Below, in pieces: positions 9,813 through 32,295 of a stretch of 64,000 nucleotides of DNA (position 1 is the first letter of the stretch; each line of letters begins with the position of its first letter). The position numbers were made by a program, and so were the translations under genes. The notes under the pieces were generated by a model. The model made no database searches. It had not been told where the DNA came from and saw only the letters and a list, made by a program, of their open reading frames with translations. The DNA is from Thuidium tamariscinum (Eukaryota > Streptophyta > Bryopsida > Hypnales > Thuidiaceae), in contig OX344757.2 in the NCBI GenBank assembly GCA_947034885.2, forward strand, positions 3,162,001 to 3,226,000. The letters run 5' to 3'.

Positions 9813-9820
9813 GCCACTTC
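9813..9820. repeat. 8-bp target-site duplication (left), GCCACTTC
   Basis: GCCACTTC immediately precedes the left hAT terminus at 9821. The identical octamer immediately follows the right terminus, at 32288-32295. Eight-bp target duplications are diagnostic of the hAT superfamily. Confidence 0.9.
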
Positions 9821-9832
9821 CAGGGTTGACGA
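9821..9832 (+). repeat. Left terminal inverted repeat of the giant hAT
   Basis: CAGGGTTGACGA. It pairs with the inverted CAGGGATGACGA ending at 32287, with one mismatch. The maize Ac ends are (C/T)AGGGATGAAA, so the family match is good. Confidence 0.85.
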
Positions 9833-9840
9833 ATCGGTAC

Positions 9841-9990
9841 GTCCAGGCCAAAATTACGTCCAAAATCCGGACGTCCGGACGTCCAGACTTAGTGGACGTA
9901 GTGGACGTTGTCCTCGGCGACCGGTGGACGGAGAAGCGGACAGAACTGCGGACGGACAGACGGTACTGCGGACGGGAGGACGGATGAGTG
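9841..9990 (+). promoter_or_regulatory. GGACGG/GGACGT array 1, left subterminal
   Basis: Repeated GGACGT then GGACGG units begin about 20 bp inside the left terminus, with G-rich units on the plus strand. The position suits a subterminal transposase-binding region and also lies upstream of the SRA gene. I see no clear TATA box between it and that gene. Confidence 0.65.
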
Positions 9991-10080
9991 GGCGATCGAC
10001 AACTTGCATTTCTGGATTTAGGGTTTTCAAATAACATGTAAGGTAGATGGCTTGAAAAGCGACCCTTTAAGGGCTGTTCG

Positions 10081-10108
10081 GTTTAGGGTGGGTTTAGGGT
10101 TTAGGGTT
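10081..10108 (+). repeat. Telomere-type TTTAGGG repeats (telo-box)
   Basis: About three imperfect TTTAGGG units some 90 bp beyond array 1. In plants the complement AAACCCTA is a known promoter element (telo-box) bound by TRB proteins. Similar tracts lie near two other arrays in this window. Confidence 0.6.
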
Positions 10109-10866
10109 CCCAAAAATATTTCCCCTTATTTTTCATTTCAAGAACCATTGATGCGAAATCTAAACCAAATGGTTTCATATATTTCCAATCATTTATAAAT
10201 TACTTATGTTTTCAAAGAATTCTAGCATAGGTATGTATTTGTGATTCTAGGTCTTGCAAGTTGCAAAACCCACACAGGTGCAGTGTGGAAAAAACCATGG
10301 CTTGACCAAAAACAAGCAATGAAGCGCTCAAAAAGTAATACTTCAGGTTCCTAAATGTGACCTTTACTAAAATTAAGCCCTAAAACCAACATTGTCTTCA
10401 TATACTTTTAAGTCCAATTGAAAGTGCTATAACTTTTGTATCCAATTTCCAAATTCAACAAAACTTGTCGGAAAATTTGCACACTCTCTTCTAGTTTGTG
10501 TAATAAATTTTTTAGAACAATCTAAGTTATACTGATTTCTTGGGAGTCAATCAAAGTTCACAAGTTCAATTTGAATTCACCAAACTGCATTGAGATGGCT
10601 TCAACTTCAGGGGCCTGTATCTTTTTCATCAAATGTTAGTTTTCCAAAAAATGTGTTGGATTATGTTTTCCTTGAAGCCTAATTATTGTCGTAAAATTTT
10701 TTTATTTTTTTATTTTTTTAAACAAATGGAATTCCATTGCAAAACACAAAGTACAAAGCAGCCAAGCCAAGCCAAGCCAGTTCAATCCATTGCTTCAGTC
10801 CGTCTAGCCTTGTTCCATATAGATGGCGACGGTCCTATTGCCACGTGAGATTTTCCCGAGGGTTGT
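10109..10866. other. 5' region of the SRA gene
   Basis: No independent gene seen. A short ATG frame at 10823 (ATGGCGACGG) ends after 16 codons in another phase. It could be a leader peptide or a 5' exon if a splice joins it to the SRA frame. A tandem CCAAG tract (AGCCAAGCCAAGCCAAGCC) lies at about 10760-10780. Confidence 0.4.
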
Positions 10867-11586
10867 GTGAGATTGCCGAGGAAAGTCACGAAGAACCCCA
10901 CAAGGCCACAACCAGCGGGAACTGTAGAGGAAGAGGCAATTTCAGACCCTAATGGAGCGGGAGCTTATGAGGTAGATGGAGAACTACCAAGAGATTTTGA
11001 CCAGGTCAGTGTCAGGGATCAATTTTTGCAACAGCGTGCTCTGTACTCCCGGATCTTACAACATTATCAAAAACTCAAGACGAGGGGTCAGTTGCTTGGT
11101 AATCGGCCTGACTTGCAGGCAATGAAGCAAATGAATGAAGAAGGAAAATCTAATGAGTTTCAAAAGTTTGGTCACGTTCCCGGAATCGTAGTCGGTGATC
11201 AATTTGAATTTTGGTCAGAAATGTTTGCCATTGGGTTGCACCGGCAAGTGCAAGGAGGGATTGCATGGGTTGAAGATCGAGGGGAGAAGGTGGCTTGCAG
11301 CGTGGTGATCTCAGGTGGTTACCGAGATGATGATGACCATGGGGAGACAGTCAAATACACTGGCGAGGGTGGAAACGATTACAGAGGTGACAAGCGGCAA
11401 TTGGAGGATCCAAAGCCCAAGAAAGGGAACAAAGCGCTTATTAACTCCTACAAACGTGGGGAAGTTGTTCGTTTGATTAGGGGCCATGATGTGGACGCTG
11501 GATGGAACAAAATCTATTCCTATGATGGATTGTACAAGGTGAAGCGTTACAACCTTGAGGTGGCACGAGATGGTCACAAGGTGTAA
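10867..11586 (+). CDS. SRA (YDG) domain protein derived from a SUVH gene
   Basis: SRA domains flip out and bind 5-methylcytosine. In plants they occur in SUVH H3K9 methyltransferases and in VIM/UHRF1 proteins. This ~239-residue frame carries the SUVH pre-SRA segment (RPDLQAMKQM) and then an SRA from about residue 102: FGHVPGIVVGDQFEF, IGLHRQVQGGI, SGGYRDDDDHGE, YTGEGGN, and IYSYDGLYKVKRY near the end. It stops just after the SRA, so pre-SET and SET are missing: a reader without the methyltransferase. The frame opens at a GTG and has an in-frame stop shortly upstream, so the true start is probably on an unseen 5' exon or the N-terminus is lost; the only early ATGs are internal. It lies between array 1 and the convergent transposase gene, whose stop is about 200 bp away. 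This looks like a host gene fragment captured by the transposon, with the reading frame retained. Confidence 0.8.
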   Translation: MRLPRKVTKNPTRPQPAGTVEEEAISDPNGAGAYEVDGELPRDFDQVSVRDQFLQQRALYSRILQHYQKLKTRGQLLGNRPDLQAMKQMNEEGKSNEFQKFGHVPGIVVGDQFEFWSEMFAIGLHRQVQGGIAWVEDRGEKVACSVVISGGYRDDDDHGETVKYTGEGGNDYRGDKRQLEDPKPKKGNKALINSYKRGEVVRLIRGHDVDAGWNKIYSYDGLYKVKRYNLEVARDGHKV

Positions 11587-11783
11587 ACATTGTCACAATT
11601 TAATTTTTGTTCATTATTTTTAAATACCATGAAACCAAGAAATCAAAAATCAATAAATCATAGTGATGTTTCCAATATGCGCATGAAAACTTGTATTACT
11701 TTCAAAGGTTCAAACAAACCATTTCCATTACAAGCTCCATGTACCATGAATATCTAAACACCTAAGTCTACATCCTTGAATTT

Positions 11784-14700
11784 CTAAGGCTTGTAATCAA
11801 CGTCTCCTCTCACCTCAGCTCCACTACTATGACCTCTTGAATCCCATTCCGAGTCTTCTTCATTACTTGTGCTGTCCATACTATCGGATGAAGACTGTAG
11901 AGCTCGCTCTTTTCTTCCGGATATTTGCTTTGATGCAAGCGATCTCTTGCGTCTACCCTTCTTTTTCTCTTTCACCATGTCTCTACCTCCTAGTGTAGAC
12001 TTCCCAATCCCTTGTTCAAGACCATTAACCGGTTTCACTTTGCTTTGTGAGAAAGGTTCACATACATCAAGGGGGGTTCGACCTAGACTTTGCCGCTTCG
12101 ATGGTGATTTTGCAAAGGCCTCCAGTATTCTTTTATTTTTAGCTTTCTTGGACTCTTTCATTGCTGGTTGTCTTGCTTTTGATCCGCTTGGAATGATGAT
12201 CTCATTTGCGCCAAAAGAAAGTAATCGATCCGATGACTTCACCCAACGTCGACCTAACATGGACTCCAATGTCTCATCTTCTTCTGGACCCTTATTTCCG
12301 TTGCGTAAACTACCGAGACCACCTAAACTTGCATTGCCGTTTTTGAATAGTATGCGTGGAGGACCGCTACGTGGGGGTTTAGTTGGATCTCGTACGAGGG
12401 GCTTCTTGCCTTTGCCAACATCAAATGACATGGGGCTCCCAGACTCCATCATACCTACATCTACATATGTTGCTACTCCCCGTGCTTTACCTTTCTCGGT
12501 ACTTGCAAGACAGATTTTCTTACACGCCAATACTTCAACGAATGCAACACTTATATCACCTACATTTTTGTCCACCTTCACTCCACTGTCTCCCAAGTCG
12601 TTCTGTTTTCCAAGTTCTTCTGCTTCGACCCCTACTAGCGATGGACATTTAGAAATTGGAATCAATTCATCCGGGGTCGAAGTCCCACCGATGTTCATCG
12701 TTGCCCCATTTCTCTCTTCCATTGCCACATTAGTGTCCCGGCTATGTGCTCGAACATTCTCACTATTCAATACTGTAGTTCTATCCACAAATTTAGCTTC
12801 TGATGGGACACCCTCATCATAGTCGTAATTCTCCTCGTCCTCTTCAAAATTGAAGACATCCAATGGATTGTCTTGAAAGTCTTCATCATTATGATGAGGG
12901 TCTTGGGATGGTTCATCAACCAAACTAGTCACATTGTATTCCGCATCATATTCATCATCAAATAGGGGATCTCTCTCTTCACCATCGCCATGATCTTCAC
13001 CACCCTCATCCTCTGACATGGACTCTTCCATATCCACACTCTCGAATTGCTCTTCGTACCACTTCTTCTCATCATTTTCTTGAGATGCGGAAAGCACTTT
13101 AGTATTGGTGTACACATACACCAAATCTTGTGCTCTCTGTGGCGTCAACTTGTTTCGAGATTTGTTGTGAACAAATGAATAGCTACTCCAATTTCGTTCA
13201 CACGAAGAGGAAGATACCGGTTGGGCCAAAATACGCTTGGCAATTGGAGCAATGAACTTCCCGCACGCGCCCTCAAAATCCCACCAAGCATGTGCTGACA
13301 ATTGTTGTTCGTTGGGGTCCAACATTTTGTGGAAAGGGGGTTCCCTATGTCGAAAGGCTACAAATTCCTTCACAACAGTGGCATACTGTTCTATGGTACA
13401 TACTTTCGTTAAAACACGCTTGCATGCATCCATTGCATCTTGATCATCAGCGAGCTCTTTGTCGTAAAGAAGATAGGGATTCAACAAAGCCCCTGCATAA
13501 TGTAGATCTGTCTCTACTATCGCTCGCCGTTCGTGAAAGGCTTCTTGTAGATGGATGGCTAAATCCAAGGACAAACTAAAAGGTGCTTCGTCCAACGACA
13601 AAACGTGCTTCTGTATTTTCTTCATGATATGTAGCACCTTCCCCATACATGGCCTTTTTGCATCCAAATCGCGTAGACCATGTACCACCGGAGCCGATAA
13701 ATCCTTGAAATTTTGACAACGCCGCCAAAAATGCTCGTTCAAAATGATGTCCTTCACCCTTCGGCTCACATTGCGAGCATGACTATTCCGCCCCAATGTT
13801 TTCACGTATTGTTCCCACTGTGGGTCCGTCACCATTTGCTGTAACTTCCCCTTCCCCTTCAACATACGGTCCACCATGTTGTAATTGGAAGCAAACCGAG
13901 TTTCCACCGCCATCAACAACATGCACTCCGGCGAATACCTTCGAAATATTGCAAGAGGCATGTGCCTCTTTTTGAAGAATTTCACTACGTTACGGGCATT
14001 GCCCACGACCTCCTCAATCCACCGTTCGTTGCCCCAATCTTTCAATAACAAATTCAGGGCATGGACCACGCAACCCTGGTAAAATATATGAGGGTACTTC
14101 AGAGATATCAAGTTGAATGCGGCTTCATTCACAGGCGCATTATCTGCGCTTATTTGTACTATTTTGGAAGGACCCACTTCTGCTATGAATTTTTCCAATA
14201 TGGAGGCTAAATAGGCGGCATTCTTCTCTTTTTCTGTTGTATCCTCCGATCCTAGGAATTGCTCGCCCGCAGAAGACACGAGCATTGCATTTACCAAAGG
14301 ACGATTTGCCGCCGAAGTCCACCCATCAATAGACAATGTTGCTCCAAACTTCCTGATGTTGTCTTCTGTTTGCTTCTTCATATTCACTTTAATGTCTGCC
14401 TTCGCTTGATCAAGCAACTTATGTCGTAATTCATGGTATGACGGTGGGGTATAGGGTTTGTGAAACTCAGCCGTTTTCTTCACCGCTTCTTTAAATGCTG
14501 CATTCCGTGCCACCGAAAATGGTATGTTCGAGCATAAAAAAAAATTAGCCCACACTGCATGCAATTTCCGTCTACTCGCTTCTTCGAAGCCATCTCCTAT
14601 CCGCCGCTGTACCAAAGGCCTACTAGTTGATCCTACCCCTGTGTCTCCTTCATCTGATGCTTGAGTACTGGCAAGTGCTCCAGAAGACACGTGGTTTAGG

Positions 14701-15053
14701 GTCTCTTTTGGTATTGTACAAGAATCTTCCGATGTAAGACGTATTGGCGGTGTCGAAGGTCTCTCATTTCCTACATCATTTACAACCGTGGCCTCCAATG
14801 TCCCGTTTCCACCCAAATTCTCGTTTTCACCTCTTCGTGGGATTACCCACTTGCACTGACGAAATAGCTTCTGAACTTGGGATGTGAGTCGTGGACATAG
14901 ACTGATTCCTCGATCACGAGACCCCGATGCACCTTCATAACCAAGATGGCTAAACATACGGCATGTTTTTTTGGCAAACACTAGATTGCAGGCTTTGCAT
15001 TGTACCTTCCCAACTGAAGGGGCGCCATACCAAGAAGACCAATCCTTGCTCAT
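11784..15053 (-). CDS. hAT transposase with BED-like finger and long acidic tail
   Basis: Cut-and-paste transposase of the hAT superfamily. The first in-frame ATG is at 15053 (MSKDWSSWYG), giving 1,089 residues; upstream codons lack an ATG. Residue numbers here count from an open frame 18 codons longer. A BED-like zinc finger (CKACNLVF...FSHLGY) spans about 37-60. The DUF659/RNase H-like core has SIDGWTS (Asp 261) and SADNA (Asp 322), with GCVVHALNLLL just after. The hAT dimerisation region has SSSSCERNWSSYSFVHNKSR (Glu 637). The D-D-E triad is therefore complete. After about residue 670 comes an unusual ~430-residue tail, first acidic (EDEGGEDHGDGEE), then with basic nuclear-localisation-like clusters (KESKKAKNKR, KEKKKGRRKRS). 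No internal stop. It converges on the SRA gene, and array 2 with TATAAG lies upstream. It is probably the element's own transposase. Confidence 0.92.
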   Translation of the reverse strand: MSKDWSSWYGAPSVGKVQCKACNLVFAKKTCRMFSHLGYEGASGSRDRGISLCPRLTSQVQKLFRQCKWVIPRRGENENLGGNGTLEATVVNDVGNERPSTPPIRLTSEDSCTIPKETLNHVSSGALASTQASDEGDTGVGSTSRPLVQRRIGDGFEEASRRKLHAVWANFFLCSNIPFSVARNAAFKEAVKKTAEFHKPYTPPSYHELRHKLLDQAKADIKVNMKKQTEDNIRKFGATLSIDGWTSAANRPLVNAMLVSSAGEQFLGSEDTTEKEKNAAYLASILEKFIAEVGPSKIVQISADNAPVNEAAFNLISLKYPHIFYQGCVVHALNLLLKDWGNERWIEEVVGNARNVVKFFKKRHMPLAIFRRYSPECMLLMAVETRFASNYNMVDRMLKGKGKLQQMVTDPQWEQYVKTLGRNSHARNVSRRVKDIILNEHFWRRCQNFKDLSAPVVHGLRDLDAKRPCMGKVLHIMKKIQKHVLSLDEAPFSLSLDLAIHLQEAFHERRAIVETDLHYAGALLNPYLLYDKELADDQDAMDACKRVLTKVCTIEQYATVVKEFVAFRHREPPFHKMLDPNEQQLSAHAWWDFEGACGKFIAPIAKRILAQPVSSSSCERNWSSYSFVHNKSRNKLTPQRAQDLVYVYTNTKVLSASQENDEKKWYEEQFESVDMEESMSEDEGGEDHGDGEERDPLFDDEYDAEYNVTSLVDEPSQDPHHNDEDFQDNPLDVFNFEEDEENYDYDEGVPSEAKFVDRTTVLNSENVRAHSRDTNVAMEERNGATMNIGGTSTPDELIPISKCPSLVGVEAEELGKQNDLGDSGVKVDKNVGDISVAFVEVLACKKICLASTEKGKARGVATYVDVGMMESGSPMSFDVGKGKKPLVRDPTKPPRSGPPRILFKNGNASLGGLGSLRNGNKGPEEDETLESMLGRRWVKSSDRLLSFGANEIIIPSGSKARQPAMKESKKAKNKRILEAFAKSPSKRQSLGRTPLDVCEPFSQSKVKPVNGLEQGIGKSTLGGRDMVKEKKKGRRKRSLASKQISGRKERALQSSSDSMDSTSNEEDSEWDSRGHSSGAEVRGDVDYKP

Positions 15054-15310
15054 AATGATGAATTTTAAGTGCGTCTTTGGAACTTCAAATTCCGAGTGTA
15101 ACCACAAAAAGGGTGAAGATCTCCGCAGGAATAAAAATTGTCAATAAAGTAACCGATATAGTTTGAAAGAAGCCTTGGAAACCAAAGCCCCCCTGACCAC
15201 TGAACTATGCATTACCAAGCAAGGGACACAACCGAAATTGCAGCGCCTAGCCCTTGGAAATCTTAGCGTTCAGCTTTACAGGAGTGCTTGCGAATGACAA
15301 TTTCTGGAAA

Positions 15311-15316
15311 CTTATA
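15311..15316 (-). promoter_or_regulatory. TATA box of the hAT transposase gene
   Basis: On the minus strand, AGAGTATAAGTTTCC lies between array 2 and the transposase start, about 260 bp upstream of the ATG. The GTATAAG core recurs next to the arrays of the other cargo genes. Confidence 0.6.
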
Positions 15317-15344: not shown

Positions 15345-15520
15345 ACCGTTGCAACGGACGAGAGACAATCCCGATTGACACTGCGGACCGAACAGCGGAC
15401 CGAACAGCGGACTGAACTGTGGACGGCCCGACAGGGTACTCCGATCGGCGGACGGCTAGAGGCGGATAGGTCTGGCGGACAGCCACCACGAGGCGGACGG
15501 CCTACATCGGACGGCCTAGA
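15345..15520 (+). promoter_or_regulatory. CGGACGG array 2, 5' of the transposase gene
   Basis: Tandem variants such as GCGGACCGAACA (twice), GGCGGACGGCTA, GAGGCGGACGGCCTA and ATCGGACGGCCTA. Units are G-rich on the plus strand. It ends directly at repeat copy A (15521). It lies directly upstream of the minus-strand transposase gene. Confidence 0.7.
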
Positions 15521-16345
15521 TCCCAAAGGACCAAGAGTGCACTTGGGGGACTTCAAGAATTTGGGCAGTTACTTTGCACTTCAATTTTGAACAAATTCGC
15601 TAGAAATTTTCACATAACTCAGATAGAAAACTTGATTAGCTCTGTGGGAATATTATTCTTTTCCAATTGGTGACCGTGAGCAAAAGTTATGCCATCTTCA
15701 ATATCATTTTCATGTTGCCGGGAAGAAAAAAATCATCAAAAACTTCAGAATTTAAAAATTAATTTTTTTTTCTTATTGATTTTATTTTTGTCTACAAGAC
15801 TACAAGTGAAGCTTTGATTCATTCCATTTGGATTACTGATGTGAAAGTCATGAACAATCTTGTTTTTTGGACAACCTAAGCATGTTTTTAAAAACAAAAA
15901 TTTAGGATTCACTTGTGAATGCAATTTCCACAATTCTCAATAAAAAATTGTTGGACAAGGTTTTTTTTTGCTTGCCAAAACAATTTCACCATTCGGATTA
16001 TAGTGTTTTAATTCAATGTATGAGATCTTTGCAATTTACTTTCTCTTTCAATCTTGGACCTACATGTACTTGACAATTTTCTAAAGAATGAAAAAAAAAA
16101 ATTTTGTTGCTGAATTTGTTTTCCTGAGCTGTTACCTCAATTTCTCAATAGAAAAAAGTTTAAATTCAAGGTCTGTAGTGCAAAAAAATTACAGAAATGG
16201 AGGACAAAGTCATTTGCAGTTGCAAACTCAAGTTCAAAAAAACATTGTTTTCCAACTTTGAATGCTCATATCTTCCTATCTATAGGGTCAAACTTCATGA
16301 AATTTCCACCACATTGGATACAACTTGTGTGAAAATCTGAAAGAA
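15521..16345 (-). mobile_element. TTAA-family repeat, copy A
   Basis: Matches, in reverse orientation, the complete copy D (60517-61435). Shared blocks are CCAAAGGACCAAGAGT at its left edge, GCAAAAGTTATGCCAT, AAGCTTTGATTCATTCCATT, and TTTGAATGCTCATATCTTCC near 16250. The left terminus is recognisable (CCCAAAGGACCA for CCCCTAAAGGACCA); the right terminus is lost. No coding capacity seen. It lies on the 3' side of the RING gene ending at 16991. Confidence 0.7.
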
Positions 16346-16990: not shown

Positions 16991-19900
16991 CTACGGTGTA
17001 ACACGAGATGGACCCTCTCTATCCCTAAGTCTTGCACTTGTACGGCGAGTGTGAGGACCAGGGCTTCCGTTGCTAGTGGACCCTCTCGAAGCCACTGCCA
17101 TATCAACAGCACTGAATTGTCTTTTTGTTTCTGGAGAGAAGTCATCCTCATCTTCCACCCTCCGCTTCTTCTTTCGCTTCTGAGGCAGATCCACTTCATG
17201 TGCCTTTAATGCTTCCAAGGCATCATCTACTGAAGCTACCATCAAGTTCAGTGTTACATTGACATCTCCAACGGAAAACCAGTGCGGGCCGGGGCCATCT
17301 CCTTCCACTAAAAATTTTCGAAAAGACATTACGGCCTCGCTCATCCTCCTGTCAAAAGCCCCTGCCACTTCCACAATTGACTGTGAGGAGTTGGAATCCC
17401 CATCTAACTCTACAAGAGCTTGAACCTGGGCAGCTTCTTCCAACTTTGACAAGAAGAGGGCCCTCCCTATCAATGTGTGATTGTACGCCCCGTATCGCTC
17501 TTGCAACTCTTTTGTATGCCCCGCATCCACCCAATTGCCATCTGGTCCTTTATTCACTTCCTTCTCTGGAAATCGAAAGAACTTGTGATGGTCTATGCTC
17601 CAATGCCCACCCATGCCGCGACAAAACAATTCGCGAGCTTCGGGATCTTCAATACCCCTTGCTCGCAATTCCACGTGTCGATCTTGGGTCATCCACACAA
17701 AGGGATCCAGCGGCACCATTGACTCTTCGTACAACCCATGCTTCTCTTCCAATGAATCCCACGTGAGAGGTTTTCCCCAATGCATATAATTTTGGAAGTA
17801 AAACGGGGCTTGATCAAGTGGAAGGGTCCATCGATTGTATTCGTGACTAGGGGGCATACATTCCAAGGTCCCAACCATTTCGTAAAACCTAGAACTCAAA
17901 GGAGAACGACACTCCAGACAAACCGAGCGAACGAGTGAGGCTTTGATTATGCACGTCACATGGAAAGTGTGATGACATTGGCCCATAGTTAGGGCTCCCT
18001 CGGGACCAAATGGACCTTGACAAATGCTGCATTTACCTTCCAAGATCCCTCGAGAAGTGTGAGAAGCATGCACCACTGTCTTCTCATTGTCCTTGATGTG
18101 TGCTGAAAGAGTGTTGTACGGAACCCAATCTTCTTCTACCTCCAAGGCCCAATTGATGTGGGGTGATTCTTCTTTCTTTGTGTGGTTCAACCGCTCGAAC
18201 ATCGCGTCCATGTCTCCCCAACATGTGATTTCTGTAGTCCCCTTCGGATGTGTTTCAAACCTCTTCCTCAAACTCATCAGTGAAGATTCTACTATTTGCT
18301 GTTGCTCATCCGATTTTCCAGCCAATTTGAGAAGCCCTTTCATTGCTCGCGAAACTACAGTTGGTTTGTCTTCTAGTTTTTGAATCCATGCCAACCATCG
18401 ATCGTCTTTGGTACTCTTTGGAAGGGAGTCATTCAATCGAAGAACATGCTCTAGTCGTTGCAATTCACTCTGCAAAGACGCGTTTTCTTCGGTGAGCTTC
18501 TCCACTTTCTACTTCAATTCATCAACTTCATGGCATTCTGTTTGAATGGAAGCATCTTGAAATGAAGTTTTGCGATTTTCAATGGCCACTAGAGGTGTCA
18601 CTTCCTGTATCTTTTTTTTCTCATCGACACTAAAATGCTTAGCTCCATCTTCTTCCTTAGCTTCGGGGAACTCACCTTTTTTGATCACGTCCTTCAATTT
18701 CTCAACTTCTGACTCCAAATCTTTAATACGACCACTTTGCCATTTCACAGTTGCAACTTCAAATTGTGCCGTATTCTTAGAAGTCCTCAATTGCTCTACC
18801 ATTTCGTTTGAGGTTCCCTTCAATTCTTTCTGCAAGGCCAGCAGTTTTGTATTCTCTTCCAAGAAGGCCACCAATTGGCGCTTGTCCTCGAAGCGCTCGT
18901 CCAAAAACGGTAACAAGGACTCGGTGAACTTATGAAACGTCAATGCACTTGCCAACAATTCAGGTGACAATTTTGCAAACTCCTGTGCCACCTCTGTAAG
19001 TTGCGGAGATACTTCAGCTACAAATCGATCTAGATTTGCCAATGTCACTTGGATTTCAGCAACAGTTGCCCAACTGTGATGATTGGCTTCACCTTGGGTT
19101 GCAATGCTTGTGGTGGCCTCACTTGTCTCTTTCGACCGGTTTAGGTCAAGAAGGTGAGACCCAAACATAACTGAACCCTCCAACAACCGTTCCAGCTCTG
19201 CGGCATTCGGCATGTTCGAAAGAGCCTCCAATTGTGATGTGTTCAAGGTGGACAAATGCGGGTATTGGCTGGGGATGACTTCAACATCAATGACTACTTC
19301 TTTTCCTTTTCCCTGAGACGCCTCTCCATTTTTTTTGGCGGTACCTGCTTCAATTCTGGCGCTCTGTACGAGGCTGGAAACGCTCGGATTGCTCAAACAT
19401 GATGGTTTTGAAGGTACAAGCCCGAAGATGTCGAGAGCATTACTGTCAATAATATCATGAATTGTAGCATTGGCCTCAGCAACTTCTCCCTCGGCTACCT
19501 CTTCCGTATCTTCAGTACCTTCACATCGAGCCAATGGGGGCCCACCTTCTTTCTTCCCACTCTGAATATCTTCAAGAATGCCCTATTCAGCCACCGTCGT
19601 AACATTTGGTGTGCATATTAAATCTGTAGGAGGAGTTGCAAACACTTCTCCTTCCACACCTTCACCTTCAGTATCTTCCATTGTCCTCAAAGTGTGTGTA
19701 GGCTCACTAGGCTGCAAGCGTGGTCCATCACTTGGTACCTCTGAGACTTTTGTTTCAATTTTTCTAGTATTTTTTAATACTCTTTTGGGCTTCGGTACCT
19801 CACTTGGCCCTCCTTGAGGATTGTACAAATTGGGAATGTCTTTTCCATTCATTTCTTGTACAAATGGAGTTTGTGCTGTCGTCGGATACGTGCTCCAATC

Positions 19901-20311
19901 CACCTTGCGTTCCAATATCAATTCTGCATACACCATAGAAGTCAAGCTGTAGTTTATGTATCCTTTACTCATTGCTTTCTTTCCAAAGAGGGCCCGCCAA
20001 ACTTCCAAAGCGCGATGCACAAAATGCGCGTTGTTGCAGTTGGTGGGTTTGCAAAAAAATCCACGTGTATGAAGTTCATGGGTCTCCCTAGGCCACAACT
20101 TGTCAATGTGATACATTTTCACGTATTTTTTGCACATTTTTGAAGACCAATACGATGCTGCCTCATCCTCCCATCCGTTTTCCGCTTTGATGTTTGGGTC
20201 ATCCAAAATCTCATAATGTAATTCGTGACTGGCGCCCTTTGGCTTATGCCTTCGATTGTCACCACCCGCTGGATTTATTCCCCCACCACGTTCTTCACCC
20301 TCACTTGCCAT
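16991..20311 (-). pseudogene. RING-H2 protein with new N-terminal domain; two in-frame TAG stops
   Basis: One continuous frame of 1,107 codons from an ATG at 20311 (MASEGEERGGG), broken only by TAG at 19585-19583 and at 18511-18509. The N-terminal domain (KMCKKYVKMYHIDKLWPRE ... MVYAELILERKVDWSTY) is shared with the proteins at 30646-31722 and 52235-54598. The middle is coiled coil (QLRTSKNTAQFEV, SEVEKLKDVIKKGE, EENASLQSELQRLEH). A RING-H2 finger follows at 18031-17897 (CSICQGPFGPEG...GQCHHTFHVTC...CLECRSPL), the fold that lets E3 ligases recruit ubiquitin-E2. A conserved tail (GGHWSIDHHKF) and a basic C-terminus with RKKKRR follow. Both stops could come from CAG by one C-to-T change. Frame continuity with homology on both sides of each stop implies recent disabling, or read-through. 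The kinase gene at 24981 is divergent to it. Confidence 0.75.
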
Positions 20312-20454
20312 GACTTCGAGTCCACCACTGTCGTGAAATGAACAATCAGTTTGTTCACCCAACTCTCCACCTCGTAGGATACAACTGGCACAATGAAGCA
20401 ACAGTAGAACATCCGACAAGGTTGAACCCAATAATGGAGAGGAGTGAAAGAAAT

Positions 20455-20690
20455 CCGTCCGCCGTCCGCCCTTATACCCGTCCGACCCCGAACCTAACTG
20501 GGGTCGGCACCGGCCGTCCGCCCGAACGACGCGAAGCGGCCACGAGGGCGGACAGTCCGCCGCCGTCCGCTCCCGACCCTAAAAGCGCCGCCGAAGCTCC
20601 CGTCCGCGCGCCCAAACCTAGTCCGCCGTCCGCAGTAGCGGTCCTCCCGTCCGCAGGTGCCGTCTGACCGTCCGATGGCTCTGTAAACTC
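20455..20690 (-). promoter_or_regulatory. CGGACGG array 3 with TATAAG, promoter of the first RING gene
   Basis: Many GTCCGCC/CCGTCCG units on the plus strand, that is CGGACGG on the gene strand, starting about 145 bp upstream of the ATG. A TATAAG box (minus strand, 20476-20471, GGGTATAAGGGC) lies within the array, about 160 bp upstream of the ATG. Confidence 0.7.
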
Positions 20691-20903: not shown

Positions 20904-20956
20904 TAGGGTTTAGGGTTTAGGGTTTAGGGTTTAGGGTTCGTAGGGTTTAGGGTTTA
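20904..20956 (+). repeat. TTTAGGG interstitial telomeric repeats
   Basis: About seven TTTAGGG units, one imperfect, some 215 bp beyond array 3. Probably telo-box regulatory DNA or a relic of end repair. It is far from any true chromosome end, since ordinary sequence continues on both sides. Confidence 0.75.
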
Positions 20957-22239: not shown

Positions 22240-22365
22240 AGTTTGATGCAAATATGAAATTTGTGGCACATTTCTTGGACGTTTCTCGAGGTGGTAAAAT
22301 TCAGTTCCAAGACTCCACAGGAGTTGAATCCATGCCAACCATCGATCATCTTTGGTACTCTTCAA
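22240..22365 (-). pseudogene. Fragment of a RING-family cargo gene
   Basis: The minus strand reads STKDDRWLAWIQ, identical to the segment in the first RING gene at about 18415-18375 (STKDDRWLAWIQKLED). At the DNA level ATCCATGCCAACCATCGATC is shared. The similarity fades after about 40-50 bp. It is a truncated duplicate about 2 kb upstream of the RING start. Confidence 0.6.
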
Positions 22366-24417: not shown

Positions 24418-24790
24418 CCCCGGGGCCGTCCGATCGGACGGCCACAGTGATCGGACGGCCCCAAGGATGTCGAGGCGGACAACCTCGACGAGGTGAGGCG
24501 GACGGCCCCGATCGGACGGCCCCTGTGATCGGACGGCCCCGGTCGGACGGCCAGCGCGATCGAACAGCCCCGATGACGACGAGGCAGACGGTCACGACGA
24601 GGACGACGCGGACGGCCCCGGTCGGACGGCAAGAGCGATCGGATGGCCCCGATGATGACGAGGCGGACGGCCAGCGCGATCGGACGGCCCCGACGAGGCG
24701 CGGCGGATGGATCGGACAGCCCCGACGAGGTTGCGGACGGGTCGGTCCGTCCGCAAGGTATAAGATGGGTAGACAGCCCGTCCGCAACCG
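24418..24790 (+). promoter_or_regulatory. CGGACGGCC array 4, promoter of the first kinase gene
   Basis: About a dozen or more GATCGGACGGCCCC-type units, often separated by GACGAGG or GTGATC spacers. The array is very GC- and CpG-rich against AT-rich surroundings. TATAAGAT at 24759-24766 falls inside its 3' end, about 220 bp upstream of the ATG. Confidence 0.75.
24759..24766 (+). promoter_or_regulatory. TATA box of the first kinase gene
   Basis: GGTATAAGATGGG, within array 4. The same GTATAAG core is found near the other cargo arrays. Confidence 0.65.
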
Positions 24791-24980
24791 CATTCTTATC
24801 TTCCCCCTTGTGTTTCACAAGAGAGAGCGGAGAGCTTGGTGGTTAATCCTCCATTGGCTCCTTTCTAAGGGAAGTTAGGAGTGGGATTTAGGGCCAACTT
24901 GTTGCCCTTTTTTTGTATATCTTTTCTGCATTGTACTTGAAATCAAGAGTATTTAAACTCTTATCATTGATTTGATCACG

Positions 24981-26468
24981 ATGCCGAAAGGAAAGAAGGT
25001 AGCAAAGGCAAAACCGGTAGCGCTAGACATTGAGGACATGCCTTCGGATGATTGCAAGGCATATGTCATCCGTATCATAGTGCAGTTTTATGAGGAGGAG
25101 AGCACTGCATCCCTTGATACCAAGTACATCCGATACCAAGAGGAGTGCATTGAGAAGTTCAAATCGGATATGACGAAGAGGATGACGGATGCTCTCTTTG
25201 TTCCAGGATGGATTCATGAAACGGAGAAGAGGGGCTTCCAAAGGTTTCTGCAGAACAGGGTGCAAGATTCATTGTGGAATGCCAAAGTGGTATTGACAAA
25301 GTACGGGAAGGAACATCGGGTGGATGATCCCACATTTGAAGAAGTCATTTTGAAGGTGGACTTGTTTGTACAACGATGTGCTCCGTTTACAAAGAATGCT
25401 AGGAAATGGAAGGGACAAGGATCATTGGGGTGGTGGAACACGGATGAAGGAGCTCTAGAATTGCAACGTGGGCGGCGGCATCTTGTGGCATTGCCCATTA
25501 CGGCAAGGGTGATTCCACAAGACAATACAGTCTTGAAGGGAGGCTATGCAACAATACAGAGGGTGCGAATTGAAGGATGTGCTGAGATACCTGCCTCTTG
25601 GGAGTTTGCAGCGAAGGTATCGCATCAACAACGCTTGAGGCCTCAACTCGCAAAGTTGGAACACCAGAATGAGTCAATGGCAGTGCGGATTCCATATAAC
25701 GGAGTTATACGATTCGCAACAGTCCATGGAACAAACAATGAAGGGTACATGTATTGGTGGAATGGTGGAACGTTGAGGCAAATGTTGAACATGGATAGGG
25801 ACTATCCAAATGACATTCACATTCGATTGGCTTATTCCAAGCCATCACCCGAAGAGGTGAATCGAGCATTCTTTCTAGCTCGATGGAGAAGGAAACGAAC
25901 GGAGCTCGCATGGGCATTGGTGCACATTTTGCATGCGGTGCATCAAGCGAGGCATCTACACAACGATCTCTCGCCGGACAACATCATGTTTCACTTTCTG
26001 GATGATGAGTCACGTGTATATATTGGGGTTTGCGATTGGGGCATGACTACCATACATAGTGATCCACCCAAATCCTTGTACACTTTCACATCTGAAAGTG
26101 AGAAGAAAGAAGCTTTGCAAAGAAGATGGTGGGTGGATCCGTCTATTGTGTATGTGCATAAGAAAGATGCAGATGTGGAAACGATTCCACATTTATCACG
26201 TAAATCAGAGGAGTTTGCAGTTGGTAAACTAGCTCAACAGATCAACAAGCAATGCATGTCCAAGGAGTACGCGACGCTCCATCGTGATAACAGAGGACAT
26301 ACGAAGTGGAGCCACCATGAGTTAGGACTTGTGTTTCATAATTATTTGGAACTTCTGTGTTCTACAGATGTAGAGAGGGCAGTAAGTTTGACTAAAATCG
26401 TCCAACGATTTACTGACCCAGGTTACAATTGGCCTATCCCAGATGAACATTTCCGCCATTCATATTAG
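24981..26468 (+). CDS. Divergent protein kinase-like protein, transposon cargo
   Basis: First ATG of the frame is 24981 (MPKGKKVAKAK), giving 495 residues. The N-terminal ~180 residues are unrecognised but similar in layout to the kinase at 58639. The kinase fold follows: glycine-loop-like LKGGYATIQRV (about 187-197), FAAK (Lys 212) for the ATP-binding lysine, a catalytic loop HNDLSPDNIM (Asp 329, Asn 334) in place of HRD, and CDWGM (Asp 352) in place of DFG. The key lysine and both aspartates are present, so catalysis is possible. Insert YWWNGGTLRQML between the lobes is shared with the paralogue. No signal peptide or membrane helix, so it should be a soluble intracellular protein. Substrate unknown. 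Intact frame. The gene is divergent from the RING gene and followed by repeat copy B. Confidence 0.8.
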   Translation: MPKGKKVAKAKPVALDIEDMPSDDCKAYVIRIIVQFYEEESTASLDTKYIRYQEECIEKFKSDMTKRMTDALFVPGWIHETEKRGFQRFLQNRVQDSLWNAKVVLTKYGKEHRVDDPTFEEVILKVDLFVQRCAPFTKNARKWKGQGSLGWWNTDEGALELQRGRRHLVALPITARVIPQDNTVLKGGYATIQRVRIEGCAEIPASWEFAAKVSHQQRLRPQLAKLEHQNESMAVRIPYNGVIRFATVHGTNNEGYMYWWNGGTLRQMLNMDRDYPNDIHIRLAYSKPSPEEVNRAFFLARWRRKRTELAWALVHILHAVHQARHLHNDLSPDNIMFHFLDDESRVYIGVCDWGMTTIHSDPPKSLYTFTSESEKKEALQRRWWVDPSIVYVHKKDADVETIPHLSRKSEEFAVGKLAQQINKQCMSKEYATLHRDNRGHTKWSHHELGLVFHNYLELLCSTDVERAVSLTKIVQRFTDPGYNWPIPDEHFRHSY

Positions 26469-26963
26469 TATTTTAGTGTTTTACGTAGAAGTATAGAAGT
26501 ATTGAATAGATGTACCGGCAAGGAAATATATCCCTATGTACTTCAAGTCCTCAACTATATCTTAAAAAGATGTGTGCATCACAAATTTTCCCAAATATAT
26601 GTGCAATTCACTTCTATCTCACATTTGTTTTTGCATGTTTTGGTCTTTTGGAACCTGTCATGATGAGTTGACCCTTGAAGCCTTGAAGTATTGGTTCTTT
26701 AGATTTTGATCTACTTGGAAAGTTTTGAATAATTCCATTTTGATGTGTAAGATGAACATTAGGCCCTATGGGACTTACTAATTTTTCTGGAATTTTGTGT
26801 ACATCTCCCAATTGGTGCACTAGAAGATCTTAGGGTTACATGTGTCACTTCTAGTTTAAAATTTTAAAGTATGACCCATGGTTACAGCCATATCGATAAC
26901 TCTATTGCTATGTCAATTAGATTCTTAAAATGAAATTGTACATTAATTGGGAAATCCTTCTTA

Positions 26964-27835
26964 CCCCTAAAGGACGAAGGCCTTCTTTTTGTCAAAAAAC
27001 TCTCAAAATTGCCAATTCTGTTGCATTCATCGAAGAAAACAAAAAAAAACAAAATTTAAGAATCTAACCGTAGGATCTTGTACTTAACTTGATTGAGATT
27101 AAGTGGTAAAAATTTCATGAAGTTTGACCGTACAGATTGGAAGATATGAGCATTCAAAGTTGGAAATACAAGTTTTTTGAACTGCGGTTTGCAATTTCAG
27201 ATGACTTTGACTGGAATTTGTATTAAAAAATTGCACTGAAGACTTTGAATCTATAATTTTTTGTGTCAAGAAATTGAGTTGAGAGTCTAGGAAAAAAATT
27301 TCACACAAAAAACACTTGATTTTCATTCTTTTGCAATTGTTAAGTAGATGTAGGTCCAAGATTGAAAGAAAAAATAAATGGTTAATAACTCTAAGATGGG
27401 ATCTAAATACAATAATCCCAATGGTGAGATTGTTTTAGAAAGTAAACCTTACCCTGTCCAACAATTTGTTTTGAAAAATTGTGAAAACTGCATTTTTAAA
27501 TGAATCCTGTATTCCTATAAGTTATTTTTTCAAGAAATTGTTTAGATTGACCGAAAAACAAGATTGTCCATAACTTTCTCATTGTAAGTCCAAAAAGAGT
27601 GAATCAAAGCTTCACATGTAAGCAATATTATATTATTTTAGAAAAATAAAATAAAAAAATTAAATTCTGACTTTTTGCAAAAAATAAAATTCTGCCCAGC
27701 GAATGAAAATTTGGGCTTTTTGTGGTATAACCTTTTCTCCCAGTCACCAATTGAAATAAAATTTACATTCCCATGAAGCTAATCAATTTTACTATCTTAT
27801 GAGAAATTTTCAAAAAGATTCATTAGAAATTGAGG
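26964..27835 (+). mobile_element. TTAA-family repeat, copy B
   Basis: Aligns in direct orientation with copy D. It starts TTA-CCCCTAAAGGAC and shares AGAATCTAACCGTAGGATCT, GGAAGATATGAGCATTCAAA and GATGTAGGTCCAAGATTGAA. The right terminus is missing. It lies about 500 bp 3' of the first kinase gene, just as copy D lies about 220 bp 3' of the second. Confidence 0.75.
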
Positions 27836-29619
27836 TCAAACAATTATTTAAATAATTTTAATCTTCATAATAATAACATAATAGTTTTTAAAATAAATAA
27901 ATAAACCTCATATGGTTAAATTTAAAAAAAAATTATTGTGTTTAACAATTTGAATAAATTTAATTGTTTACTTGCTAAAAGTTACCATTACAAATAGTTC
28001 ATATTTTTCTACTTCATTGTTGGGAACTTGGGAGTTGGAATGTAAAAGGAATTTCCTATAGACCAAAAAACACAACATTTGGATACTATATTATATTTTT
28101 ATGTTTCAAAATAGTTTTAGTAAAATATGCTAGTCTACTTTTCAAGCTACTATTTCATATCTTATTGACTTTTCAAAGAATTTGAGCTCCTTCAAACAAT
28201 TTTCAAAGAATTGTAGGAACTAGGAAGACTGAAGTTGAATTTGGCATTTAATTGAAGTCATTTTATATTTTTGCATAAATCAATTTTGTAAATTAGTAGC
28301 ACATCGAATCCTCCATCTTCCTTTCAAACATCTAAAACCTCTTTCTATAGCCATTCTAGTGCTGGTCTGCTAGATAGTATGAAATTTCAATGAATTTTTT
28401 TCCTTGATAGTCCATCTTATACATCTTTGAATGGTCTCATTAAATTTGCACCACCTCCCACTAATTTGTAAGGTAAAAAATTTGTAGAAAAACAATGTTT
28501 TTATTTTGGAAGTAAAATAAATAGGAAGAAAATAGGGAAACACAAACAAAAATTTTGTTGTTTATTTTTCTATAAAGATTAGAGGTAGAGAAAAGATAAG
28601 CACGCATATTTTTAAGTTTTTTAAATTTTTTTTAATTGATTTCATTGAGCATTGAGAGAATCTAAGAGAACATGAATTAGAAATTGGGCCCTAGAATCCA
28701 GCCCAAGGGGTTTATATTAACTAAGGCCGGATGGGAAAATTAGGGCCGGATAGAAGGCCGGATTGAAGGCAAATCCGGCCGACTTTCCATTCGGCCCCAG
28801 GCCCAATATAAACCGGCCCTTAATACCTTGTGCTGTTAGAGGTTGAATATTTTGCATTTCTTTATAAGTAAAAAAAACCTAGAATTTACACCAATCAAGA
28901 AGAATTTCGAACCGTGACAATCGAAATTGTATTTTGGTGAGGTATTGAAACTTTATATTCAACATTCATTTAAAAATAATCGGAATTTTTTCTTTACTTC
29001 GACTGGATGTGTACTGTCTTTTTTTTGTGCTTTACATTATCTTCTAATTCTTCTTTGATACTAACTTGAAAACAATCGTAATGTTAATATTTTATAACAC
29101 ATTTGGGTTTTGTCCTAACCCGTTGGGGTTATAGGGGTTCAAAATGCATCGGCCTTTTGAACTTGTTCATTATTTGTTAAAAGAAAACAATGTGAAGATC
29201 TACTAAAGTACTAATTCTACAGTCTCAGGAGTCCTATATATTCAAGGACTTTTGAAGGTTTGGGATATTGAAGTGTTGAAGAAATACACTTCAACTAAAT
29301 TAGTGGCAACAAATTCTGGGCCTTTTTTCGGTATGGGAAAATTGATCGGGTTTTTGGTAATATAATTTTATTTCAATTGTATTTTGAGAGAAAATTTATT
29401 CCCCCTAAGGCCCAATGTAGGCAATAGAAAGAAAAACAAGCATGATTTTTAAAATTACATTTTTTTTTTAATAGCAGTTTTTTCTACGTAGATAAACTTA
29501 ATTTATTTTCATTGCCTAGGACGTTGTGACGGCTATGAATCTTCTTGTTTTTCAAGCAATAACAGTAAACTTTTTAGAAGAAGAAGCATTACATCCATTT
29601 TAATAGTTGAATAGAGAAT
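27836..29619. other. Non-coding interior of the giant hAT
   Basis: AT-rich, no open frame with recognisable similarity. The one clear structure is the GC-rich fold-back at about 28704-28823. Confidence 0.5.
28704..28823. repeat. GC-rich fold-back (AAGGGGTTTATATT ... AATATAAACC)
   Basis: AAGGGGTTTATATT on the left mirrors AATATAAACCGGCCCTT on the right, around GGCCGGAT repeats. It looks like a tiny hairpin-forming MITE. Confidence 0.45.
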
Positions 29620-30365
29620 TGCATAAGGTTTTTTGTTTTTTTTTGAAAACGGTTTCACCATTGGAATTAATGCGTTTCAATTTGATGCAAGACCTGTCAC
29701 CAATTTAGTTTTTGTGTCCATTTGAAGCTTTGATTCATCCTATTTGGACTAATAATGAAAAAGTTATGGACAGTCTTGTTTTTTGGACAATGTACGCATC
29801 TTCAACCCTAAACAACTTGTAGAATTAATTTTTGAGTGCAATTTTAAATTTGTACCATTTTTTTTTCTTAAAGCTTAAGTTTGTTTTCAAGAACAATCCC
29901 ACCGTTCGGATTATGGTTTTTTTATTCAATATAAGGGCTATTAAGAATTCAGTTTTTTCTTCAACTTTGGACCTACTTCTACTTAACAATTTTTTTTAAT
30001 GTGGAAATCAAGTGTTGGCATTGTAAAATTTTTTTTACGAACTCTCAACTCAAATGCTCAAGATAAAAAATTTTGACCTCATGGTGTGTAGTGCAAAAAA
30101 AATCCAGAAATGGCTATCAAAGTCACCTGAAATTGCAGGGCGTAGTTGAAAAAAACTTTGTTTTCCAACTTTGAATGCTCATATCTTCCAATCCGTATGG
30201 TCAAACTTCATGAAAATTTTACCACATGTTGTTAGAGAAGTGAAGTACAAGATCCTACGGTTAGATTCTAAGAAAAAAAGTGTTCTTAGGTTTCTTGAGT
30301 GATTGCAGCAGAAATGGTAGTTTTCAGTGGTTTGATAGTCAGAAAATGACTTGGTAACTTAAGGG
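29620..30365 (-). mobile_element. TTAA-family repeat, copy C
   Basis: Reverse-oriented relative of copy D, with some internal rearrangement. It shares TTTGAATGCTCATATCTTCC, GATCCTACGGTTAGATTCTA and the terminus TAAGGG-TTAA at 30360-30369. It ends about 280 bp 3' of the minus-strand cargo gene at 30646. Confidence 0.65.
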
Positions 30366-30645
30366 TTAATTTGTTTTTGGGGCAAACATAATGAACACAC
30401 AAACTCACAGCTTCGTAAATAAGGAGGCAGCATAGAAGCTTCACAAAGAAAATGGGACATAATTGGATTGGAATTTACAAATAGGCATGCTCAAAATTTG
30501 TATTCAAAAAATGGCGAACATCCTCATATCGTCCTTATGCCAATCTATATCCTATGGCAAGAATATACAAAAATTGATTGCTAATTACTATATTTCTATT
30601 TTAAAGCAACCATTGTTTCGCTACAATCTTCCAAACCCTAAACCC

Positions 30646-31722
30646 TCACTCAGATTCCGAATCGGTGTCATCTTTGCGAGTTGGGCCAGTTGAACCAGAT
30701 CCAAAAGTCCCGAGAAATGGTCCACCACCCCATATGTCTCCAAATCCTCTTGATGCACCTCCATGCCCATAATTTCTATAGTAAGGTCCTCCAAAAGTTG
30801 GAGGAGGAATTGAATCATCACGCTGAGATCCCCTGTGCCATGTATCATTATAAGAACTACTTCCAGAGAATCCAGGATAGTACTGAGAACTACCTTGGTT
30901 GGAACCATAATTATGTGTGGTTCCTTGGCTACCTTGGTAGTTGCCATAGCCACCTCAAGGGTCATTACTGTAGTGTGGATCACTTTGGCGATTTTGGGTC
31001 CCATAAACACCATGGTCATGTTGATACGATCCATGATGCCCATGTGGTTGACCACGATCCTCGAGACTTCGTTGCATTGCATCTCGCATTTCTTGCTCGT
31101 ATTGGATGTCTTCGCGTTCTTGTCTACGCCCAGGTATCTCTCCAAATGACACAGGCGCTGAAGCATCCTTCTCCTCCTCCTCTTCCTCCGACCAATCATC
31201 CTCAGCATCCAGCAATACAACCGGTGCATATCCAAGTTGGCCTCGGTTAGACCACTCTGGCATACAATCACTTATACCAGTCCAACTTATATAAATAACA
31301 GCATCAGTACGATGCAATTCGTGGACATTTTTGCCGCAAATTGTGCGCCAATCCACATCTTTGTGGAGCACAATCTCTGCCCAAACCATGGCCATGTTGG
31401 AGTAGTTCATCACATTTGGTTTGGAGTCACGTATTTCAGTTGACCGTGTGACTTCCTCATACCGGTGGACAAAGTGCTTGCTTAGGCACGTCGAAATTTG
31501 TCCCTCCCAACGACGAACTTGCTTTTCAGCACGTTCTCTTGACCACATTTTTGAGAGGTGCGTCATTTTGACGTACTTCTTGCATGTTGTGCAGTCCCAA
31601 GATTTCTTCGGCTCCTCCTCCCATCCAGGTTCTGCTACACACAAAGGGTTTGCCCAATCCTCCCAATTCATGTCTTGGGATTTGCCCTTGGAACTGGATT
31701 TTGGTTTATCGTTGCGAGGCAT
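30646..31722 (-). CDS. Cargo protein with shared N-terminal domain and Gly/Tyr/Gln-rich tail
   Basis: Starts at an ATG (MPRNDKPKSSSKGK). Residues about 40-140 match the N-terminal domain of the RING proteins (CKKYVKMTHLSKMWSRE ... MVWAEIVLHKDVDWRT). An acidic run (DDWSEEEEEEKD) and a charged Gln/Arg segment follow. After 255 codons an in-frame TGA (30957-30955) occurs. The same frame then runs on for about 103 codons of low-complexity sequence (GGYGNYQGSQGTTHNYGS, ending DDTDSESE) to a TGA at 30648-30646. The composition carries straight across, so the tail was probably translated originally; CGA or GGA could have been the earlier codon. It has no RING finger, unlike its two relatives. It has its own array and TATA box upstream and faces the kinase gene tail to tail. 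Function unknown. Confidence 0.65.
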
Positions 31723-31892
31723 GGTAATAAAATTACCCCAAAGTCCAGAATTAGGGTGATGGGAATTTCAGGGCTGCCCAAAAGCAAATAATAATTAAAA
31801 CTCAATACTATGAAAGTATTCAAGTTTTAATCACAACCATCTCACCAAAATGAAAGGGGCTCACAGAGCTCGAGGCATTGGATTACCCACTT

Positions 31893-32245
31893 CGGAAGGC
31901 GGACGATTGTGCCTGAATGAGCCGTCCGCGATGCTACTTATACTCGCGGACGGTGGGCGACGTCTCCATCGAGATCGAACGGCCTTCAGAGCGGACGGGA
32001 GATCGTGCGGCCAGAAGTTGTCGCTGGTCGGATTCGGCAGTGCGGACGACCTGCGGACACGCGGACGGCATGCAGATGGTGGACTGCGGACACACGGACG
32101 GCCTGCGGACGCTCTCCGCACCATCCGCCCGTCCGCAAGGCGTCTGCCCGTCCGCAAGCCGGCGGTGTGCCCGTCCGAAATGCCATCCGCGGAAGTGTCC
32201 GGTCGTCCGTCCACTGGACGTACGTAAAAAAAAATTTCAAATGTC
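31893..32245 (-). promoter_or_regulatory. CGGACGG array 5, cargo promoter and right subterminal region
   Basis: The first two-thirds carry G-rich units on the plus strand; the last third (from about 32118) carries CCGTCCG units, so the array is itself inverted. TATAAG (minus strand, 31942-31937, GAGTATAAGTAGC) lies about 215 bp upstream of the 31722 start codon. GGACGT units near 32215-32260 mirror those inside the left terminus. Confidence 0.7.
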
Positions 32246-32275
32246 AATGGACGTTCGAGGGTTAGCGCCTACGTC

Positions 32276-32287
32276 TCGTCATCCCTG
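32276..32287 (-). repeat. Right terminal inverted repeat of the giant hAT
   Basis: TCGTCATCCCTG; inverted it reads CAGGGATGACGA, pairing with the left end with one mismatch. Confidence 0.85.
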
Positions 32288-32295
32288 GCCACTTC
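32288..32295. repeat. 8-bp target-site duplication (right), GCCACTTC
   Basis: Identical to 9813-9820. Confidence 0.9.

Follow-up and report, generated by a model that had tools for sequence, protein, structure and literature searches.

A locus in the genome of the moss Thuidium tamariscinum provokes a question: can a hAT transposon keep and spread several genes besides its transposase, and, if so, what do those genes do for it? Ordinary plant hATs are a few kilobases long and carry one gene. The locus lies in contig OX344757.2 of assembly GCA_947034885.2, within forward-strand positions 3,162,001 to 3,226,000; this whole stretch of 64,000 nucleotides is called the window, and positions without a contig or segment label are counted from its first base. 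Between hAT-type ends, it holds genes for a transposase, an SRA-domain protein, a RING protein, a kinase, and a fifth protein. We conclude that the locus is very probably a 22,467-bp hAT transposon (element 1) that has spread as one unit, and that its four other genes likely serve the element's own movement and its escape from silencing. This conclusion is drawn from exact ends and duplications, empty sites, collinear copies, a RING–kinase pair that recurs in a second family, arrays of a short motif, and purifying selection on the kinase.

Element 1 occupies positions 9821–32287. Its terminal inverted repeats, CAGGGTTGACGA at 9821..9832 (+ strand) and CAGGGATGACGA (read inwards) at 32276..32287 (− strand), are directly adjoined by the two copies of an 8-bp target-site duplication, GCCACTTC, at 9813..9820 and 32288..32295; the duplication is exact over 8 bp on both sides. 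The original prediction for this DNA, made from the letters alone, had placed Ac-like ends directly beside identical octamers and read them as one hAT element. That claim was borne out. The extent that it gave, 9813..32295, does contain both duplications, and the element proper is the interval between them. The terminal repeats match at 11 of 12 positions in the window copy and at 10 of 12 in other copies, where the right end is CAGGGATGACGG. Element 1 thus has the short inverted ends of a hAT, for which a passage of PMC12506042 quotes 5–27 bp. Taken alone, the 12-base end is unremarkable (six matches in the window with two or fewer mismatches vs. 3.9 expected). We therefore rely on the pair. 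The window was scanned for 8-bp direct repeats beside inverted ends, with mismatches counted in 12 and with 40 shuffles as the control. Eight pairs had three or fewer mismatches (shuffled mean 3.0), and two had one at most (shuffled mean 0.05), so that a pair such as that of element 1, which is one of these two, is rare in shuffled sequence. The second is A+T-rich, and its ends begin with TA.

Do such ends recur together? The genome searched was the 363-Mb assembly of 19 contigs (labelled C1, C2, etc.; the window is on C9 at 3162001–3226000). With the left 178 bp as the query, 40 of 283 candidates were scored, which gave 101 matches, 41 of them covering most of the end; for the right end, 40 of 192 candidates were scored and gave 41 matches. 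The eight loci first fetched with the left end, the window's included, start at the same first base and have differing flanks. When left and right matches in inverted orientation were paired by eye, at least 30 pairs resulted. Twenty-five of the 30 span 21.3–23.4 kb, and the other five are longer (25.6–74.7 kb) and represent inserts or neighbouring copies. Both ends were read in 28 pairs, those left out being on C7 (71 kb) and C5 (75 kb). Matching duplications, for which the original prediction had suggested a search, accompany these ends: they are exact over 8 bp, the hAT length, in 23 of the 28. Two pairs (C3a and C3b) have near duplications with two extra bases, two (C6a and C6g) have duplications that mismatch at their own ends and match each other's, and one (C11a) has no duplication.

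To look for unoccupied targets, we took the flanks of 23 copies and sought matches in the genome segments retrieved for this analysis. Four paralogous empty sites were found, all joined exactly at the predicted ends, as precise hAT insertion would have it; none that cut elsewhere was found. The copy at C4:3907852 interrupts another member of the family within its left-end region, and uninterrupted copies show its target, TTTAAGGG, once; within the window copy, this unoccupied target is at 10066..10073 (+ strand). The uninterrupted paralogue of the C6b site is in genome segment L006 and that of the C1b site in a minisatellite unit at 51535–51700, and in each the 8-bp target is single, with one changed base. 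The fourth case is a paralogue at 5770–5985, outside element 1, in which AAGGCAAC unites two flanks that are now separated by ~430 kb of contig C6, namely the left one of C6g and the right one of C6a (empty site at 5906..5913, − strand). Three other candidates were rejected: the low flank of C2a has only a 72–73% match to an internal 800-bp repeat, the C2c flanks match 39394–39492 and 38782–38811, which are not adjacent, and the 79% match of the low flank of C6a to segment L005 gives no empty site.

The two C6 copies are full-length and inverted with respect to each other (~19.71–20.16 Mb; segments L018–L020 and L065–L066). Since their 8-bp duplications are swapped and a flank of one is joined to a flank of the other in the paralogue, the likeliest account of this arrangement is that the two copies recombined with each other and so inverted the ~408 kb between them.

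Seven full copies, the window's and six others, were compared. They are 22,258–22,523 bp long and 97.5–99.2% identical, the window copy being the most divergent; such near-identity suggests recent activity. All five genes are present and collinear in all seven. The association also extends to the wider set of scored matches. A kinase lies within 17 kb, in opposite orientation, of 38 of the 42 scored transposase matches, and an SRA gene lies within 5 kb of 34 of them. Of 52 SRA matches entered, 42 have a same-orientation kinase within 20 kb, always at 13.6–18.0 kb. (These 52 come from 134 SRA rows; the loci of two other SRA kinds, the second pieces of split matches, and weak matches were left out.)

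These results bear on the objection that the outer ends agree by chance alone, the locus being a row of two or more adjacent short elements or a product of misassembly. The GGACG arrays described below, which mark the ends and also occur inside the element, would suit such a patchwork. However, the shuffles, the recurrence of 25 of 30 end pairs at 21.3–23.4 kb with exact duplications in 23 of the 28 read, the collinear full copies, and the four empty sites, whose breakpoints are the outer ends, rule it out, and we assign it practically no probability. The original prediction had itself named two findings that would overturn it, empty sites with other breakpoints and ends drawn from two shorter elements; neither was encountered.

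The five proteins listed in the original prediction were all found by domain or by sequence, with the qualification that the RING gene has two in-frame stops in the window copy. The SRA-domain gene (10867..11586, + strand; SRA domain E value 7e-40) is open in the window copy; at codon 179, the six other full copies differ from it by several clustered bases, which would fit conversion of a short patch, and have a stop there. The transposase (1107 residues; 11784..15107, − strand) has DUF659 and Dimer_Tnp_hAT domains, the latter being the hAT dimerisation domain PF05699 (E value 1.1e-9). Its D261, D322, and E637, which we take to be the D-D-E triad, are the same in all 16 sequences of the alignment (the window's and 15 of 17 database matches, P0072 and P0076 being left out); with that assignment, the full D-D-E that had been claimed is present. 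The RING gene (16991..20431, − strand) encodes an N-terminal domain, a likely coiled coil, and a RING domain, and it is open over 1145 codons in three of the seven full copies. A 39-bp piece of it (18380–18418) is repeated 3.9 kb away at 22324–22362 with 97% identity. The kinase gene (24972..26468, + strand) is intact and encodes 498 residues. Its Pkinase match (E value 1.3e-4) is below the Pfam cut-off, and the fold was confirmed: the model, with a mean predicted local distance difference test score (pLDDT) of 79, matches solved kinases with a Foldseek probability of 1.00, an E value of 5e-7, and a template-modelling score of 0.58 by target length. The fifth gene (30955..31722, − strand) encodes 255 residues, including an N-terminal domain that it has in common with the RING protein (33% identity).

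The transposase is free of stops and frameshifts in three of the seven full copies, and the kinase is open in five. Across the genome, the transposase is stop-free in the matched frame at 19 of 42 scored loci (from 821 candidates), the window's included. For the kinase, 86 of 666 candidates were scored, which yielded 78 loci: 68 full or near-full-length matches (≥86% identity), of which 38 are stop-free, and ten partial ones.

Database relatives of these proteins are of several sorts. The kinase has 54 matches, the best of which is 63% identical over nearly the full length. Ceratodon purpureus, a moss, is the only plant named as a source of matches (47% and 42%; one cluster of 126 members), and a further match (62%) carries the label of a Bacilli metagenome bin. 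The transposase has 17 matches, 16 of them with DUF659, the last being a weak match to a Dendrobium protein, and the RING protein has five among its best 7998 candidates. The solved structures closest to the SRA protein are SUVH4/5/9/6; the protein is also 47% identical to two other loci of the genome, whose open frames are long (630 and 367 codons) and which we have taken as host genes. A multi-gene, 22-kb element with a kinase might also be viral or virus-derived. Yet the viral contig collection, when queried with the kinase and with the alignments of kinase and transposase, gave no confirmed relative, nor was one confirmed when the genome contig collection was scanned with the kinase alignment. 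No capsid or polymerase family exceeded the cut-off in the open reading frames scanned (the kinase had a sub-threshold match to DNA_pol_A_exo1, E value 0.024). Given in addition the hAT ends and duplication, we consider a viral origin highly improbable.

The window holds a second, divergent complete element (element 2; 49972–65751, 15.8 kb) that encodes a RING protein, a kinase, and a hAT transposase. Its window part is 49972..64000 (+ strand), and it continues into L078, the next stretch of the same contig, in which positions 1752–1759 are 65752–65759 in window numbering. The left end, CAGGGTTGC, is at 49972, and the right end, ...GACAACCCTG, is at 65751 in L078; the left 8-bp duplication, TTTTTACG, at 49964..49971, has its partner at 65752–65759. 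The RING protein has 685 residues (52562..54619, − strand). The kinase has 553 (58639..60300, + strand) and is 27% identical to that of element 1. The transposase (61821..64000 and on into L078, − strand) is in two reading frames, 61821–62975 and 62996–63943. RING and kinase genes stand head to head in both elements, with the transposase of element 2 on the other side; the SRA and fifth genes were not seen among the open reading frames of element 2. Minisatellite-like arrays are present in element 2 at 50618–51878 and 57232–57523, and the C1b copy of element 1 sits in such a unit elsewhere.

Parts of the gene set occur in still other company. SRA loci of two other kinds number 17 and 19, and one of each was sampled. 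Both samples have the window segment 10764–12339 (the SRA gene and the transposase tail) at 95.6–97.1% identity, placed beside a different kinase. This third kinase is a 529-codon frame in L080 (C2:45893500-45902500) and is in two frames in L079 (C1:6400000-6408000). No ends were found in the 8–9 kb fetched for these loci. The presence of this segment beside a different kinase implies a module common to element families.

Both elements of the window are also marked by a motif. GGACG, or its complement CGTCC, occurs 146 times in the window vs. 48 times in Markov shuffles; its density per kilobase is 3.1 in element 1, 4.1 in the window part of element 2, and 1.0 and 0.5 outside. Every cluster of four or more motifs (eight in the window and one in L078) lies within one of the two elements. 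Element 1 has arrays at both ends and upstream of its five genes. The left array (9840..9982, 12 motifs) is the nearest one upstream of the SRA gene, at a distance of 0.9 kb; others precede the transposase (15356..15513), the RING gene (20456..20673), and the kinase (24427..24783, 15 motifs); and the right array (31901..32253, 15 motifs) is also upstream of the fifth gene. In element 2, arrays are likewise found at both ends and upstream of three genes: at the left end (49994..50442, 23 motifs), before the RING gene (54885..55609), before the kinase (58149..58415), and at the right end (65196–65678), upstream of the transposase. The five array places of element 1 recur in all seven full copies, and the array upstream of the kinase is present in four of four diverged loci tested. 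The array regions differ in length among the seven copies (180–341 bp at the left end, 359–548 bp before the kinase), the coding lengths of the SRA and kinase genes are constant, and that of the RING gene differs by one codon. Element 1 thus has, as VANDAL elements do, dense non-coding motif arrays that expand and contract. One intergenic stretch is ~360 bp longer in the window copy.

Selection on the kinase was examined by Nei–Gojobori comparison of nonsynonymous and synonymous substitution rates (dN and dS). For families separated by a dS above 1, and with element 2 excluded, dN/dS was 0.17–0.23; comparisons with the element-2 kinase were saturated, giving 0.23–0.38 or values that were not computable. 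The window copy compared with the 93% family gave 0.29. Pairs with dS below 0.2 gave 0.29–1.14, a spread to be expected of copies after insertion. By this measure, with dN/dS about 0.2, purifying selection acts on the kinase between families.

The same copies bear on silencing. Among the seven, 848 singletons were counted, of which 522 are C-to-T or G-to-A. The C-to-T singletons are concentrated at CG (191/1409 sites, 0.136) and CHG (130/1039, 0.125) compared with CHH (201/6448, 0.031), and this pattern therefore points to the mark of plant cytosine methylation at CG and CHG sites.

Several observations weigh against the view that the whole gene set is kept for the element's use. The test for purifying selection covers the kinase only. 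Among the six other full copies, the pooled ratio of nonsynonymous to synonymous polymorphism (pN/pS) is 0.49–0.84 by gene, only moderately below 1, and single values against the window copy are 0.37–1.26; such ratios among close copies are as expected after insertion and are no proof of function. The SRA gene has an in-frame stop at codon 179 in six of the seven full copies, and only 43 of the 78 kinase matches have an entered SRA match in place, which argues that the SRA gene is dispensable in some copies; stop-free SRA copies do exist at other loci of the genome. Coding lengths vary as well, by up to 47 bp in the transposase and up to 17 bp in the fifth gene. A kinase family with 57% identity was seen as a kinase with two arrays, with neither ends nor any other gene of the set found within 23 kb, and no gene was found directly downstream of the left array of element 2. 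Finally, the domain shared by the fifth and RING proteins gave a weak model (mean pLDDT 64), and no PDB match at an E value of 0.001 or better was obtained for the model of the fifth protein or of the shared N-terminal domain.

Could the four extra genes then be hitchhikers, i.e., host genes captured by chance and copied without function, as in Pack-type elements? The likeness of the SRA protein to SUVH proteins and to two presumed host loci (47% identity), the broken state of its gene in six of seven full copies, and the pooled pN/pS of 0.49–0.84 would all fit such an origin. Pack-type elements mostly hold gene fragments, and these differ among copies, whereas here five genes are kept in all seven full copies. 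The kinase has a dN/dS of ~0.2 between families and is stop-free in 38 of its 68 full-length matches, the RING–kinase pair recurs in element 2, and an array stands upstream of each gene. We regard chance capture as unlikely on these grounds. Gene capture by plant transposons (reviewed in PMC13317346) offers a likeness, namely host-like genes inside an element, in our case an SRA protein resembling SUVH proteins; the moss element differs in that whole genes persist in many copies and the kinase is under selection.

The original prediction had compared the element to the fungal Starships, in which case the genes would be cargo kept for the benefit or manipulation of the host and the element would be their vehicle. 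What stands of this is the large, multi-gene hAT; as parts of PMC11623301 describe them, Starships too are large DNA elements with several genes. The SRA and transposase-tail segment found beside a different kinase at both sampled loci indicates that modules move, which would also suit cargo. According to passages of PMC12506042, Starships have a tyrosine recombinase at the 5' edge. The edge gene of element 1 is the SRA gene, its recombinase is a hAT transposase, and the Starship captain domain (DUF3435 tyrosine recombinase) is absent from its seven main open reading frames scanned. Variability is found between families, the SRA and fifth genes being unseen in element 2 and the SRA segment lying beside a third kinase family, but gene content is identical in the seven full copies. 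This constant set weakens the comparison with Starships, as does the recurrence of the RING–kinase core in a second, distant family. The genes also share the element's own array, and none has an evident host-benefit function. We consider Starship-like cargo to be less likely still than chance capture. Given the arrays at ends and genes and the purifying selection on the kinase, the extra genes look like a kept set of the element's accessory genes rather than variable, host-useful cargo.

How might an element with such accessory genes work? The hAT transposase would cut out the whole 22 kb and reinsert it by cut-and-paste; in hAT excision, a hairpin forms in the flank. It would recognise the terminal repeats together with the subterminal arrays. 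Since the same arrays precede each gene, a single element-encoded protein may bind both ends and promoters, this being either the transposase or the N-terminal domain common to the RING and fifth proteins, and the expression of all genes would then be switched together with transposition competence. The SRA protein could act as a competitor for methylated cytosines, and host factors for silencing or repair could be removed or inactivated by the RING protein and the kinase. The function of the accessory proteins is probably the control of transposition and silencing, and in its working the set would resemble VANC, by which VANDAL elements counter silencing.

VANDALs are Mutator-like and are not known to have a kinase, RING, or SRA gene. 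In the VANC/VANDAL system, as presented in passages of PMC5735166, an element protein binds dense non-coding motif arrays and causes loss of methylation. The likeness is that of multi-gene plant DNA transposons with dense, fast-changing non-coding arrays; the motif is another one, and array binding is proven there and presumed for the moss element. Of the systems studied, VANC/VANDAL comes nearest, as a parallel in working and not in descent.

Plant hATs such as Ac/Ds, Tag1, and Tip100 have 8-bp duplications, short inverted ends beginning with CAGGG, and motif-rich subterminal regions. Element 1 resembles them in its duplications, its short CAGGG-type ends, its dimerisation domain, its invariant D, D, and E, and its subterminal motifs; it differs in its 22 kb, its four extra genes, and the array of the terminal motif upstream of each. 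Another comparable element is ToxhAT (ToxTA) of wheat-pathogen fungi, a 14-kb, multi-gene class II element first filed as a hAT. It is single-copy, has a 2-bp TA duplication, and is judged misclassified as a hAT in the passages of PMC12506042 on it. Element 1 is likewise a large class II element with several genes, but it has its own hAT transposase and exact 8-bp duplications in 23 of 28 pairs read. The main text of the gene-capture review (PMC13317346) uses none of the terms hAT, Starship, and giant, and the passages of PMC13120521 on the searched terms contain nothing comparable. Searches of the literature on giant or multi-gene hATs, moss hATs, hATs with SRA, and Ceratodon transposons found no such element, though subscription papers or preprints may describe one. 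With ToxhAT reclassified (PMC12506042), no other well-supported multi-gene hAT of this size is known from the literature searched, as far as its accessible parts extend.

The window has further features. An A+T-rich repeat of 600–880 bp is present three times in element 1 (15522–16314, 26963–27838, and 29709–30333) and once in element 2 (60549–61433); its copies are up to 85% identical, and comparison of the window with itself revealed none elsewhere in it. Telomere-like TTTAGGG repeats lie within element 1 at 20904–20964. The genes flanking the element encode an F-box protein (6225–7415) and a glycosyl hydrolase of family 3 (43507–47032), the latter apparently multi-exon (one exon was tested).

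More broadly, and tentatively enough that we do not lean towards it as yet, mosses may host an old class of multi-gene giant hATs. In such a class, kinase, RING, and SRA proteins would form a self-encoded control and anti-silencing system, GGACG arrays would be both the transposase-binding ends and the promoter of every gene, modules would be exchanged between families, and inversions would arise as a by-product. The present locus itself indicates that a five-gene unit of 22 kb, several times the usual size, can be kept and spread in a plant genome by a hAT element. On contig C6, a chromosome rearrangement appears to have been made through such a giant element. With selection on its kinase and with arrays that link ends and promoters, the element offers a system in which to ask why DNA transposons keep accessory genes.

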